Source: an uncultured Holophagaceae bacterium (GTDB lineage Bacteria; Acidobacteriota; Holophagae; Holophagales; Holophagaceae). From it: DNA of 64,000 nt. Under the pieces are notes generated by a model. It did not search any database, was not told the origin of the DNA, and saw nothing but the letters and a program-made list of their open reading frames with translations. The first letter of the stretch is position 1. Each line of letters begins with the position of its first letter. The stretch covers positions 1 to 64,000 of the forward strand of contig CAIOFF010000035.1 in assembly GCA_903857495.1 (NCBI GenBank), given 5' to 3'. A program made the position numbers and the translations under genes. Positions 40,797 through 47,275 of this stretch are shown here, in pieces.

Positions 40797-41516
40797 ATGT
40801 CCGAACCCAAGATCCTGCTGGTGGAAGACGAGCTGAGCCTCGCCGAGGGCATCAAGCTCAACCTGGAGCTGGAAGGCCTCGCCTGCACCTGGATCCCCCG
40901 GGGGGACCAGGCCCTGAAGCAGATCCTGGCGGAGACCTATGACCTGGTGATCCTCGACGTGATGCTGCCGGGCCTGGATGGCTACACCATCTGCGAGCGG
41001 GTGCGGGAGGCCAAGAACTTCACGCCCATCCTGTTCCTCACCGCCAAAAACACCGACGATGACCGGGTCCACGGCTTCGAGACCGGCGCCGACGACTACC
41101 TGGGCAAGCCCTTCCAGGTCCGGGAGCTGCTGCTCCGGATTCGGGCCATCCTCCGCCGCGAGTCCTGGTACAAGAGCCGGGAGATCAACAGCCGGCAGAC
41201 CTTCGGGGCCTACTGGGTGGACTTCGACAACTTCTGCGGGGAGGGGCCGGGCGGGCCGTTCCAGCTCGGCGTGAAGGAGTCCATGATCCTCAAGCTGCTC
41301 ATGGAGCGGCCGGGCCAAGTGGTAAGCCGCACCGACATCCTCGACAAGGTCTGGGGGGAGGACGCCTACCCCACGAGCCGCACCGTCGACAACTTCATCG
41401 TACGGATCCGCCGGGTCATGGAAGACGATCCCCACCACCCCCGCTGGGTCCACACCCTGCGGAGCGTGGGCTACCAGTTCGACCCTGAGGGCCGCCAGCG
41501 GAAGGGCGAGGAGTAG
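40797..41516 (+). CDS. OmpR-family response regulator
   Basis: A 239-residue regulator. The receiver has KILLVEDELSLAEGIKLNLE, the phosphate-accepting Asp in LVILDVMLPGLDGY, the Thr/Ser in LFLTAKN and Lys in YLGKPFQVRELLLRI. The C-terminal winged helix has MILKLLMERPGQVVSRTDILDKVWGEDAYPTSRTVDNFIVRIRRVMEDDP. It looks active. A cognate kinase is not adjacent, so it is an orphan in this window. It is divergent from the glycosyltransferase, 54 bp away. Confidence 0.92.
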   Translation: MSEPKILLVEDELSLAEGIKLNLELEGLACTWIPRGDQALKQILAETYDLVILDVMLPGLDGYTICERVREAKNFTPILFLTAKNTDDDRVHGFETGADDYLGKPFQVRELLLRIRAILRRESWYKSREINSRQTFGAYWVDFDNFCGEGPGGPFQLGVKESMILKLLMERPGQVVSRTDILDKVWGEDAYPTSRTVDNFIVRIRRVMEDDPHHPRWVHTLRSVGYQFDPEGRQRKGEE

Positions 41517-41534: not shown

Positions 41535-42629
41535 CTATCTGACGTCCAGTTCCCGGCTGCGGCCCAGCTTCTCGAAGAGGGCCGACTGCTCGGCAGGCGT
41601 CGCCGGGGCGGGGCCCTGCTTCACCTCCATCAGCACGGCGCGCTTCTCCTCGCCCGGGGCGAACTTGCTGTCGCCCAGCACGGGCTCGAAGGTCGGCAGC
41701 AGCGCCAGCTCGCCCGGGACGCCCTCGGGCGCCTTGCCGGCAGCCAGATCGGCTGACCTCGCGAGCAGGCCTGCCCCTGGAGCGGCGCCGAGACGACGGA
41801 GGTCCAGCCACCCGAAGGCAGGGTCGCGCAGCAGGACGAGGTCCTCCTTGTCCAGCCAGGCCAGCAGGTCGTTCAGGGCCTTGGTCTGCACGGGATCGGG
41901 CAGCCGCCGGCTCTTCTTCTCGCCGTTGACCTCCACCTCCTGGGGGGTGTTCTCGACCCAGGCCTGGGCGCGCTTCACCCAGAGGGCCGTGATGGCCTTC
42001 TGCTCGGCGAAACCCTCCGGGGAGGCGGGGGCCTTGGCAGCCTTGGCCTTCTTCCCCTTGGCGGGGGCCTCGGGCTCCGCCCAGCCCGGCGCCACAGCAT
42101 CGACCTTGGCGTCGAAGAGCAGGCCCTTGAGCTTGAGCAGGCGGGGCTCAAGGCCCGGGTGCCCAACCTTGGCCGCAGCGCGGGCGGCGGCCTGGAGCTC
42201 CTTCCAGGTGCACCCGAGCAGCAGCTTGGCGCCGGTGGCGTCATAGAGTCCGCGGTTGGCCCGAAGCTGGGTGAGGTAGGCCTCGACCGCCGGTAGCGAG
42301 GCGGAGGCCTTCTCGGGAAGCACGGGCTTGGCCGCCAGCAGCTCTCCGAGGGCGGTCCGCACTTCCACGGCCCTGGGGTGGCTCCGGTAGGTACCCAGCT
42401 CATGGGCCGAGAGGGCGGCCCGGTGGAGGGTATAGACCAGCTTCCGCTGGCTGGGTCGCAGCTGCTCGAAGGCCTTGGCTTCGACAGGCTTGGGGGCTTC
42501 GGTCGCGGGCGTCGGCGGCGGCTCCGGCTTGGGGGCCTGGGTCACGGGGACGGACGGTGGCTCGGGGGACGGCGCCTGGGCCAGCAGGCCCGTGGCCAGG
42601 ATCCAGGTCATGACCCAGCGTCGCTGCAT
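41535..42629 (-). CDS. Secreted protein of unknown function
   Basis: A 364-residue protein with a signal sequence (MTWILATGLLAQA; the methionine at 42629 is six residues before it) and a Pro/Ala/Lys-rich linker to about residue 50. The helical body (EQLRPSQRKLVYTLHRAALSAHELGTYRSHPRAVEVR) vaguely resembles peptidase M49-type N termini, but the catalytic HExxGH motif is missing, so no enzymatic role is supported. It converges with the response-regulator gene 18 bp away. Probably periplasmic. Confidence 0.45.
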   Translation of the reverse strand: MQRRWVMTWILATGLLAQAPSPEPPSVPVTQAPKPEPPPTPATEAPKPVEAKAFEQLRPSQRKLVYTLHRAALSAHELGTYRSHPRAVEVRTALGELLAAKPVLPEKASASLPAVEAYLTQLRANRGLYDATGAKLLLGCTWKELQAAARAAAKVGHPGLEPRLLKLKGLLFDAKVDAVAPGWAEPEAPAKGKKAKAAKAPASPEGFAEQKAITALWVKRAQAWVENTPQEVEVNGEKKSRRLPDPVQTKALNDLLAWLDKEDLVLLRDPAFGWLDLRRLGAAPGAGLLARSADLAAGKAPEGVPGELALLPTFEPVLGDSKFAPGEEKRAVLMEVKQGPAPATPAEQSALFEKLGRSRELDVR

Positions 42630-42686: not shown

Positions 42687-45053
42687 TCACGCCTCCGTCG
42701 GACTCCCCAGGAGGAGCTCAAGACTTTGCTTGAGTTGTTTTAGATCGAAGGGCTTACCCAGGTAGGGCACCTGGTTCGTTTCCAGGAACTCACGGGTCTT
42801 TGCATCGAAGGAATCCCCCGTCGTGTAGAGGATCCGCCGGGTCATGTCGGGCCGCTCGACTTTCAGCCAGTCATACAACTCGACACCCGACAACCCCGGC
42901 ATGCGGATGTCAGAAACGATCAGGTCGAAGGCCCCCTGCTGCAGCTGCTCGATGGCTTCCTCTCCCCGGGTGCTGGAGGCGACGTCCACGCCCCAGGCGC
43001 CGAGGGCATCCACCAGGCACTCCAGCAGGAAAGTCTCGTCGTCCACCACCAGGACCCGCTTGCCCTGGAGTCCATTCCTGGGCGGGACGACCCGGGGCGC
43101 GGCAACCCCATGCGGGAGCTCCATCAGGAAGGCGTTGCCCGACCCTTCCTGGCTCTGCACGCTCAGGCGGCCACCGTGCTGCCGGCAGATGGCATCGGCG
43201 ACGGGAAGCCCCATGCCCTCGGTGCTGGTGATCTCGGCCGCATCGAACAGCTCGGCCTGCCGGGCTTCAGGGATCAGCGGGCCGCTGTCCTGCACCACCA
43301 CGTGGAGGCTGTCCCCGGAGAACCGGGTGCTCACCCGCAGCTGCTTGACAGGGCGGAGGGTCAGGGACTGGAAGCTGCTCAGGAGCAGGCTGGTGAGGGC
43401 CTGCCGCAGGAGTCCCGCGTCCAGGTCGGACACGGGCAGGCTCGGGTCCAGGCTCAGCTGAACCGCCACTCCCACCTCCTGCGCCTTGGGCTGAACCAGC
43501 GCAGCGACCTCCGCCACGAGCTCATTGAGCTGGACAGGCGTCCGCACGGGCGTGGGCGGATTAAGAAGGGTCTGCAGGGGAAGCAGCAGGTCCTGGATGG
43601 AACCCACGGCCTTCACCAGGCGGTCGACCGGCTCGGAATCCTTGCCGGCTTCAGCCAGCCTCTGCGCTTCCAGGAAGACGGGGGTCAGGCGGTTGGCAGC
43701 CTCATGAAAGAGGGTGGGCACCAGCCGACCCAACGCCTCGTGCTTCTGGGAGTGGACCAGCCGCTCCTGGAGATCCTTCTGCTCACTCGTGTCCCGGACC
43801 AGGGCGGAAAAGGCCAGCACCCGGTCGTCGCTGCCCCGGACAGGGGCATAGGTGATGCTGGCTGGGAAGGGGATACCCCCCTTGCGCATCCGGGTCGTGA
43901 CCACCCCCCGGATGACCTGGCCCCGGGCCACCTGCTGGGCCACCTGCTCCAGTTCCCCGAGCAGGTGATCCGGCGTCAGCTGGGCCATGCTCCGACCCAC
44001 GATCTCAGGCCGGGAATACCCAAAGATGCGTTCCGCCGCCATGTTCCAGGTGAGGATCTTGCCGTCCGGCGAGTAGGAGATGACCGCTTCCCCGATGTTC
44101 TGCACCAGCCCTTCCAGGTAGCGGCGGGTCTTGAGGTTGTCCTGGTTGGCCCGGTCCAGCTGGGAGTAGAGCGCGCTCAGCTCCTCGTTCTTCTTCTCCA
44201 GGGCCTCCTTCATCTGCTTGAGCTCAGAGTAGAGGCGGGCCGTCTCCATGTTGGACTTCAGGGCATCTTCCAGCAGCTCGTGCGCGTCTGCGACCTTGCC
44301 CGGCAGGAGGTCGGCCACGCTCACATTGCTGTGTCTCAGCACCGTCGTCTCGATGGCGGACATCGAGGGTCCTGGCTCAGGCGGCGGCAGCTCCCGCATG
44401 CTCGTCCGGACATTGGCGTCGATGAGGTTCAACATCTCATCGAAGTCCTTGATCTTCTTGTCGAGGTGGTACTTCTTGAAGGTGTGGCCGACGGTCTCCC
44501 GGGTGATGGAGAGGAAGGTGTCCAGCACGCCGACGCCGCGGTTGGCGATGGATTCGAAGTAGGGCACGCTGCGGAAGTTCAGGCGGCGGTTCATGACCCC
44601 CACGGCCATGGCGTCCGGAAGGTCCCGCTTATTGTACTGGATGACAAAGGGGATCTGCTTGATGTTCAGCCGATTGGCATTGAGGTTGTGGTACAGGTTC
44701 GAGAGGGAGTCCACGTTGTCCTGCATCTTGGACTCGCAGGAATCCGCCACGAACACGACCCCATCCGCACCCCCCAGGACCACCCGCCGGCTCGCGTCGT
44801 ACTGCACCTGGCCAGGCACGGTGTAGATCTGGAGGTGAATGGCATTGCCGTAGATGTAGCCGAGGTTGATGGGCAGCAGGTCGAAGAAGAGCGTGCGGTC
44901 TTCCTGGGTGTTGACCGAGAACATCTCCCCCCGCTGCGCGTCGGAGCACATGGCGTGCAGGGACTGCAGGTTGGTTGTCTTGCCGCTGAGACCCGGCCCG
45001 TAATAGACCAGTTTGAGCAGAATCTCATTGCCTCGCGTATTGAACTGAACCAT
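42687..45053 (-). CDS. MglA-like GTPase fused to PAS, kinase-like and receiver domains
   Basis: A 788-residue fusion. Residues 1-195 are an MglA-type Ras-like GTPase: YYGPGLSGKTTNLQ (Walker A, Lys25), TVPGQVQYDASRR and VIQYNKRDLPDAM (guanine motif NKRD). A coiled coil leads to a PAS domain (EAVISYSPDGKILTWNMAAERIFGYSR), a kinase-like part with the phospho-histidine in LFHEAANRL, and an ATPase-like part with degenerate N and G1 boxes (LLLSSFQSL, DSGPLIPE). A complete receiver follows (VLVVDDETFLL, IVSDIRMPGLSGVELY, GKPF). MglA normally sets cell polarity with MglB; no mglB is near. The start is the ATG at 45053. Confidence 0.88.
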   Translation of the reverse strand: MVQFNTRGNEILLKLVYYGPGLSGKTTNLQSLHAMCSDAQRGEMFSVNTQEDRTLFFDLLPINLGYIYGNAIHLQIYTVPGQVQYDASRRVVLGGADGVVFVADSCESKMQDNVDSLSNLYHNLNANRLNIKQIPFVIQYNKRDLPDAMAVGVMNRRLNFRSVPYFESIANRGVGVLDTFLSITRETVGHTFKKYHLDKKIKDFDEMLNLIDANVRTSMRELPPPEPGPSMSAIETTVLRHSNVSVADLLPGKVADAHELLEDALKSNMETARLYSELKQMKEALEKKNEELSALYSQLDRANQDNLKTRRYLEGLVQNIGEAVISYSPDGKILTWNMAAERIFGYSRPEIVGRSMAQLTPDHLLGELEQVAQQVARGQVIRGVVTTRMRKGGIPFPASITYAPVRGSDDRVLAFSALVRDTSEQKDLQERLVHSQKHEALGRLVPTLFHEAANRLTPVFLEAQRLAEAGKDSEPVDRLVKAVGSIQDLLLPLQTLLNPPTPVRTPVQLNELVAEVAALVQPKAQEVGVAVQLSLDPSLPVSDLDAGLLRQALTSLLLSSFQSLTLRPVKQLRVSTRFSGDSLHVVVQDSGPLIPEARQAELFDAAEITSTEGMGLPVADAICRQHGGRLSVQSQEGSGNAFLMELPHGVAAPRVVPPRNGLQGKRVLVVDDETFLLECLVDALGAWGVDVASSTRGEEAIEQLQQGAFDLIVSDIRMPGLSGVELYDWLKVERPDMTRRILYTTGDSFDAKTREFLETNQVPYLGKPFDLKQLKQSLELLLGSPTEA

Positions 45054-45290
45054 GTGTTTTGCCAGGAAAAAGGATGGGCTAAAGCCTACCACGATGGGTC
45101 GCGGGGGAGACCAGCCTCTCCCCTCTCAACGGCAACCCACGTGTTAGCATTATCTTTTGGAATTTTGTCGACATTTTCAGCGCGCGATGACCGCTCAGAC
45201 CCGCTCCAAGCTTATCCCTCCAGCAAGCTCCCGGGGCCACCGCGAGGTTGGCCATGCGGTCCGGCCCGGCCCCTCTCTCTCAGGCACACG

Positions 45291-45977
45291 ATGACGGTCC
45301 CAACCCACGTCGCAATCATAATGGACGGCAATGGCCGCTGGGCGGCGCAGCGGGGCTGGGCGCGCATCAAGGGCCACAAGGCTGGTGTTCAGGCGGTGGA
45401 GCGCATCCTGGAGGCGGCCTCTGACGAGGGCATCCAGCACCTGAGCCTGTATGCCTTCTCCACCGAGAACTGGAAGCGTCCCCCCGCCGAGGTGGCGGCG
45501 CTCATGGCCCTCCTGCGAATGTACCTGCGCATGTTCGTCCACCAGCTCGCCCGAAAGGGCATCCGCTTCCGGCACCTGGGAGATCTCCGGGGCATGCCCG
45601 GGGGCATCCAGGCAGACGTGAAGACCCTCGAGGAGGCCACCGCCGGCAACACCGGGATGACCTTCCACCTGGCCGTGAACTACGGGTCCCGCCTGGAGCT
45701 GGCCCAGGCTGCCCGGCGCTGCGTGGAAGACGGCCTCCGCCCCGACCAGGTGGACGAGACCGCCCTGGGGGCGCGCCTCTGGACGGCCGGGGTGCCCGAC
45801 GTCGATCTGCTCATCCGCACCAGCGGGGAGCACCGCATCTCCAACTTCCTGCTCTGGCAATCCGCTTATGCTGAGCTCTACATGACAGATGTTCTGTGGC
45901 CGGATTTCGGTCCCGCGGCGCTGAAGGAAGCCCTCGAGGACTATGCTCAGCGTGAACGGCGCTTCGGGGGAATCTGA
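45291..45977 (+). CDS. uppS: Undecaprenyl diphosphate synthase
   Basis: A 228-residue cis-prenyltransferase that makes the C55 carrier for cell-wall synthesis from farnesyl diphosphate and isopentenyl diphosphate. The conserved blocks are present: AIIMDGNGRWAAQRG with catalytic Asp, GHKAG, LSLYAFSTENWKRP, HLGDLRGMPG and DLLIRTSGEHRISNFLLWQSAYAELYM. The ATG at 45291 fits the family start. Its stop overlaps the cdsA start by one base. It is first in uppS-cdsA-dxr-rseP, the usual bacterial order (here interrupted by a GxxExxY gene). Confidence 0.96.
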   Translation: MTVPTHVAIIMDGNGRWAAQRGWARIKGHKAGVQAVERILEAASDEGIQHLSLYAFSTENWKRPPAEVAALMALLRMYLRMFVHQLARKGIRFRHLGDLRGMPGGIQADVKTLEEATAGNTGMTFHLAVNYGSRLELAQAARRCVEDGLRPDQVDETALGARLWTAGVPDVDLLIRTSGEHRISNFLLWQSAYAELYMTDVLWPDFGPAALKEALEDYAQRERRFGGI

Positions 45978-46866: not shown

Positions 46867-46904
46867 TCCACGAAGGACACGAAGGAGACGAATGGACACG
46901 AAGG
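46867..46904. repeat. CACGAAGG repeats, left arm
   Basis: Copies of (C)ACGAAGG occur at about 46870, 46879 and 46898, plus the variant AGACGAATGG at 46886. The outer edge reads AATCTCCACGAAGG. The start codon and first residues of the GxxExxY gene are inside the repeat. The right arm at 47292-47334 is an inverted copy. Confidence 0.8.
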
Positions 46905-47275
46905 AATTGCGCTTCAAGGACGAGGTGTTCGCCATCGTCGGTGCAGCCATCGAGGTTCATCGGGCCCTTGGCCCTGGGTTTCTGGAAGGGGTCTATGCCG
47001 AAGCGCTGGCTTTGGAGTTGGCCCAGGCCAAGATTCCTTTCGAACGCGAGGTATCCCTTCAGATCCTCTACAAGGGGGAGCCCCTGAAAAAATCCTACCG
47101 GGCGGACTTTGTCGCCTTTGGTGTGGTTCTTGTCGAAATCAGGGCCTCTAGCGGGTTGGGGGAGGCTGATCGGGCCCAGCTACTCAACTACCTGAAGGCC
47201 ACAGGAAGCCCTGTCGGGGTGCTGCTGAATTTTGGACGCCATCCCAAGCTTGATTGGCTCCGGATGGTTAACTAA
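46892..47275 (+). CDS. GxxExxY family protein
   Basis: A 127-residue protein with the family-naming motif in LGPGFLEGVYAEALALEL, plus GEPLKKSYRADFVAFGVVLVEIRA and AQLLNYLKATGSPVGVLLNFG. The fold is thought to be PD-(D/E)XK-related; here the D...ExK site reads D...EIR, with Lys replaced by Arg, so catalysis is doubtful. It splits the otherwise contiguous cdsA-dxr pair. It is bracketed by inverted CACGAAGG repeats, and its first residues (MDTKEL) are encoded by the repeat. It behaves like a small mobile cassette; function is unknown. Confidence 0.88.
   Translation: MDTKELRFKDEVFAIVGAAIEVHRALGPGFLEGVYAEALALELAQAKIPFEREVSLQILYKGEPLKKSYRADFVAFGVVLVEIRASSGLGEADRAQLLNYLKATGSPVGVLLNFGRHPKLDWLRMVN

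Follow-up and report, generated by a model that had tools for sequence, protein, structure and literature searches.

We examined a window of 64,000 nucleotides, the whole stretch of DNA that was analyzed, from an uncultured Holophagaceae bacterium. A single minus-strand open reading frame, with its ATG at 45053, its stop at 42687 and no internal stops, encodes a protein of 788 aa. An earlier sequence-only reading had placed an MglA N terminus ahead of PAS, kinase-like and receiver parts within these 788 residues; its coordinates were exact, and the domains were confirmed by Pfam matches to Arf/Ras, PAS (residues 313-421), HATPase_c (546-648) and Response_reg (667-778). The linker that follows the MglA domain is poorly ordered and leads into a predicted helix (257-311). 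The features are:

42687..45053, minus strand: whole open reading frame, MglA-linker-coiled coil-PAS-DHp-CA-REC (ORF and Pfam, 36 further full-length orthologs).
44472..45053, minus strand: MglA (Ras-like GTPase), aa 1-194, with the GPGLSGKT P-loop, R53, TVPGQ (Q82) and NKRD (match to 6h17, invariant motifs, fold).
44220..44282, minus strand: conserved linker-helix motif, aa 258-278 (HELLEDALKSNMETARLYSEL region), opening a predicted continuous helix of aa 257-311 (regex and helix prediction).
43791..44117, minus strand: PAS, aa 313-421 (Pfam).
43554..43763, minus strand: DHp (HisKA-like), aa 431-500, with His450 at 43706-43704 (ortholog alignment, predicted fold).
43104..43541, minus strand: HATPase (CA), aa 505-650, with degenerate N box (S555/S559) and G1 box (DSGPL) (Pfam, alignment, intact control kinases).
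42708..43064, minus strand: receiver, aa 664-782, with the phospho-site Asp715 (42911-42909), Thr744 and Lys767 (Pfam, alignment).
45054..45290, no strand assigned: intergenic region in common with the divergent uppS, which starts at 45291 on the plus strand (locus comparison).

We also examined the neighborhood of the fusion gene. uppS and cdsA are its divergent neighbors in 42 of 49 loci; on its downstream side follow a 364-aa ORF, an OmpR-type regulator gene (40797-41516, syntenic in 26 of 49 loci) and a glycosyltransferase. The 364-aa ORF (window 41535-42629, minus strand) has no Pfam match; it accompanies the fusion gene in 24 of the 49 loci and shows about 66% identity there. Just 6 of the 49 related loci have a PDDEXK_3 (GxxExxY-type) ORF (window 46892-47275, plus strand) separating cdsA from dxr; these two genes are adjacent in close relatives, so the ORF has the look of a small insert in a conserved set of cell-envelope genes. 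A locally encoded MglB partner was rejected, there being no roadblock gene near the fusion, and the search for MglB (Robl_LC7) gave no above-threshold match anywhere in the genome, nor any on the contig of the fusion gene. An ordinary mglB-mglA operon exists elsewhere in the genus (L137:4460-5557); it was found neither in the assembly of this genome nor in that of the near relative G354. As its neighbor deoC is missing as well, either an assembly gap or operon loss is possible. Two more MglAs of this genome, with long low-complexity C-terminal tails, are encoded at L002:1378-2373 and L003:1450-2694; MglAs of this tail-bearing kind span several phyla and fall into separate groups in our tree.

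By sequence and fold, the window protein is an MglA-family GTPase beyond the usual single-domain definition of the family, its 788 aa comparing with a single-domain size of at most about 240 aa (PMC4316618). The MglA-family motifs are all present (G1 P-loop, switch-I Arg/Thr, G3 TVPGQ and NKxD). The best phmmer match among solved structures is Myxococcus xanthus MglA (6h17; residues 5-187, E 5e-55), and because this alignment is ungapped, Arg53 (the arginine finger), Thr54 and Gln82 occupy the same positions as in MglA, where Arg53 and Thr54 have been described (PMC6876712). The AF2 model of residues 1-312 agrees with the MglA crystal structures 6izw and 6h17 at a target TM of 0.94-0.95; it is good for the GTPase and does not fix the placement of the linker. 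The full-length model (pTM 0.37) is poor in its GTPase part, a probable effect of the nearly invariant alignment over this domain, and domain contacts were not taken from it; neither model gives a picture of the linker or receiver contacting the GTPase. Like the MglAs of M. xanthus and T. thermophilus, to which it has 38-49% identity over the structural alignment with a fold target TM of about 0.9 or more, the domain has the P-loop, arginine finger R53, TVPGQ with Q82 and NKxD. Known MglA, however, is a single-domain protein that works with MglB, whereas this one shares its chain with PAS, pseudokinase and receiver, and its gene adjoins no roadblock gene.

The histidine kinase boxes are in a different state. 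The H box (FHEAANRL) has His450 and the G2 box (EGMGLP) is partly retained; the N box (LTSLLLSSFQ) has Ser at both Asn positions, S555 and S559, and G1 reads DSGPL in place of DxGxG. Box by box, then, the sequence-only reading was correct in calling N and G1 degenerate and the receiver intact, the latter having its acidic pocket (VDDE), Asp715, Thr744 and Lys767. The kinase module, as read from its sequence, fails these two defining boxes, and the kinase is probably dead. Such degeneracy is not usual for the genome, since the H, N, G1 and G2 boxes are intact in all five of its best-matching other hybrid kinases. The predicted DHp/CA fold is that of a histidine kinase, with a dimer-type DHp and a fold match to DivL (4q20). 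The light input through PAS that had been suggested is not supported: direct reading of the translation found no LOV-type NCRF cysteine motif in the PAS domain. A redox input is conceivable.

The architecture recurs in many other genomes, where the sequence-only reading had proposed looking for it. Our bacterial genome scan for the fusion took the best 80 of 440 loci, and orthologs were found in at least 43 Holophagaceae loci (Geothrix and relatives), some of them cut by contig ends. The ortholog comparison used 37 full-length sequences, the window protein included; the other 36 measure about 784-806 aa and come from other Holophagaceae assemblies, named Geothrix strains among them. Mean pairwise identity is 93% for MglA, 84% for the linker helix, 72% for PAS, 70% for the receiver, 62% for DHp and 55% for HATPase. 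dN/dS indicates purifying selection across all domains; against seven relatives it is 0.02-0.10 for MglA and 0.18-0.52 for HATPase, the fastest-evolving domain, several-fold above MglA. No catalytic G-box residue varies among the complete Holophagaceae sequences, and the receiver Asp, Thr and Lys are kept in 37/37. The second G1 Gly is absent from all 37, G1 Asp589 is kept in every one, and the second N-box Asn is kept in most Geothrix-type orthologs. The window protein and most members of its genus retain the phosphoacceptor His; 8 of the 37 have Asn in its place. All eight still have a complete receiver, which their own His cannot phosphorylate, so the phosphate, if any, comes from elsewhere. 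Some Holophagaceae loci (L033 and L038) have lost receiver and His together, and another (L045) encodes MglA-PAS only, with everything after PAS gone and no kinase remnant found beside the gene at that locus.

Our survey of fusions was extended across Acidobacteriota, where MglA matches among 396 genomes often fall in long frames. In the loci taken from them, sensor-fused MglA occurs in 16 family-level groups (f1, f2, f3, f5, f6, f8, f15, f18, f26, f31, f35, f39, f45, f65, f76 and f86), and the fusion types are MglA with GAF-HisKA-HATPase, with PAS-HATPase, with PAS only and with GAF only, architectures of distant members being assigned by a mix of Pfam and home-made profiles. Intact kinases are found in f2, f5, f8, f31, f65, f76 and others (members include L124, L125, L127, L213, L214 and L216), His-less kinases in f3, f18, f35, f39/f86 and most of f45, and kinase-free fusions in f2 (MglA-PAS only, L149-L152), f6 (MglA-GAF, L126, L129 and L224) and single Holophagaceae. 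In four f39/f86 members (L219, L220, L221 and L222) the C-terminal part resembles a HATPase worn beyond Pfam recognition. Our maximum-likelihood tree was built from 100 MglA domains, a sample that is not random since frame length guided the choice of distant members. A branch with 100/100 support separates all sensor-fused MglAs from the sampled single-domain (MglB-type) and tail-only ones; midpoint rooting serves the drawing alone. A second tree, labeled by kinase state with the His states of distant members read by eye, has 7-9 changes of the His label, of which well-supported forks force at least 4-5. The His-bearing Geothrix group is there nested in His-less lineages, so that it may have acquired the residue anew, a possible sign that the residue is used. 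A linker motif before the coiled coil, [DE]L[LIV]xx[AS][VIL]xx[NST]xxx[AT], matches 44 of 55 sensor-fused MglAs and 0 of 25 tail-only ones by regex; having been derived by eye from family members, the pattern gives counts that are descriptive, not an independent test. Conservation runs in the order GTPase, then sensor, linker helix and (in Holophagaceae) receiver, with the catalytic kinase expendable.

The best explanation, which we consider somewhat better than an even bet, is a sensor-controlled MglA, with PAS, pseudokinase and receiver as an input module to the GTPase. PAS would respond to a cue from the cytoplasm; the DHp together with the degenerate ATPase would serve mainly as dimeric scaffold and relay, with no working histidine kinase, and the receiver would take phosphate from another source. 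Changes that PAS and the phospho-receiver bring about in this DHp/CA dimer would then pass through the coiled coil and linker helix to the switch regions of the GTPase or to its partner access. The outcome could be an altered nucleotide state, altered access of an MglB-type GAP, or altered partners. In this scheme we infer the loss of kinase activity, the direction of the signal, the source of the phosphate and the cellular output. The genome carries type IV pilus PilT homologues, which makes type IV pili a candidate output; naming these or polarity is a guess, and a polarity role for the window protein is one that we only infer.

Two known systems are precedents for the two halves of this scheme. 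RomR is a receiver protein that acts on MglA (PMC3441718), and RomR/RomX is a GEF for MglA (PMC10329633); here too a receiver would influence MglA, but RomR is a separate protein with neither kinase nor PAS, while the window receiver is on the MglA chain. DivL of Caulobacter is a pseudo-histidine kinase serving as an input sensor (PMC4211667), likewise combining PAS with a histidine-kinase fold devoid of kinase function and relaying a phospho-receiver signal inwards, as would the window protein, whose predicted fold matches it (4q20). DivL has no GTPase and no receiver of its own. It retains the N and G1 boxes without the His, the converse of the window protein, in which His is present and the N and G1 residues are missing. 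A third comparison is the actinobacterial conservon or AGPS (CvnA kinase, CvnB roadblock, CvnD GTPase), which similarly couples a sensor kinase to an MglA-family GTPase (PMC13343842, PMC4316618), and in Cvn8 a GAF accessory protein accompanies the sensor kinase, an arrangement that we liken to the window fusion. Conservon proteins, however, are separate products of an operon that includes a roadblock gene, whereas the window protein is one polypeptide from another phylum, its gene lying not in a cvnA-B-C-D operon but among uppS-cdsA-dxr, the orphan regulator and the glycosyltransferase.

The sequence-only reading suggested that the GTP switch may act on two-component signaling; the covalent wiring it implied stands, but the direction is probably reversed. 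The GTPase never decays, while repeated losses have affected the His, the ATP boxes or the kinase as a whole, which makes input into the GTPase likelier. The opposite case, in which the GTP/GDP state of MglA controls the kinase or phosphatase activity of the kinase-receiver part and so signals to a separate regulator (e.g., the OmpR-type product of 40797-41516), is unlikely in our estimate, yet draws on several observations. The window protein retains His450, like most of its genus, and has an intact receiver; some relatives have intact kinase boxes, and the regulator gene is syntenic as noted above. Phosphatase activity of a kinase is possible without all ATP-binding boxes. Given His450 and the second N-box Asn of most Geothrix-type orthologs, residual kinase or phosphatase activity is possible. 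Conservation of the GTPase, moreover, is a mark of importance and not of being the last step. Against control by the GTPase are the degradation of the His, G1 and N boxes, the rapid evolution of the CA domain, and the lineages that keep MglA-PAS or MglA-GAF with the kinase gone.

It is also conceivable, and a good deal less probable, that the kinase is active despite its odd boxes, the protein being an ordinary PAS hybrid kinase whose N-terminal GTPase acts solely in localization. Its HATPase_c match scores 46.7 bits, above the Pfam cut-off, the predicted fold is that of a histidine kinase, and Asp589 of G1 is universal among full-length orthologs; yet Ser stands at both N-box Asn positions of the window protein, no full-length ortholog retains the second G1 Gly, Asn replaces His in eight orthologs, and the boxes are intact in the five hybrid kinases of this genome that match best. 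A hub for scaffolding or localization, with a GTPase that works as free MglA does and other domains that merely dimerize and position the protein, would suit the predicted long continuous helix, coiled coil and dimer-type DHp fold, and other MglAs commonly bear disordered tails; a passive scaffold would not, however, need the strictly kept catalytic residues of the receiver, and we think this most doubtful. An artefact, whether a frameshift or an assembly join of two genes, had been raised by the sequence-only reading itself and has a negligible chance: we found no point that supports it and rejected it, given 36 further full-length orthologs from other assemblies and purifying selection in every domain.

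Extending the sensor-controlled MglA to the wider branch, we tentatively propose, as a picture with nearly even prospects, an Acidobacteriota lineage of one-chain G-protein sensors. An early fusion of MglA with a sensor kinase would have been followed by repeated loss of kinase catalysis, turning two-component parts into a GTPase input and dimerization module; the receiver in Holophagaceae would take phosphate from other kinases, and the linker helix would be the coupling element. The main survey of Ras-like GTPases in prokaryotes excluded sequences longer than 240 aa (PMC4316618), so that the sensor-fused branch fell outside its scope, and we found no earlier description of MglA-kinase fusions in the open-access literature searched. 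Coupling between bacterial phospho-signaling and small GTPases is known mainly through separate proteins (RomR/RomX-MglA and the conservons). Sensor-fused MglA places this coupling within one chain in many genomes, among them members with live, dead or no kinase, and so provides a comparative series both for two-component control of a Ras-like switch and for the passage of a sensor kinase into a pseudokinase input.
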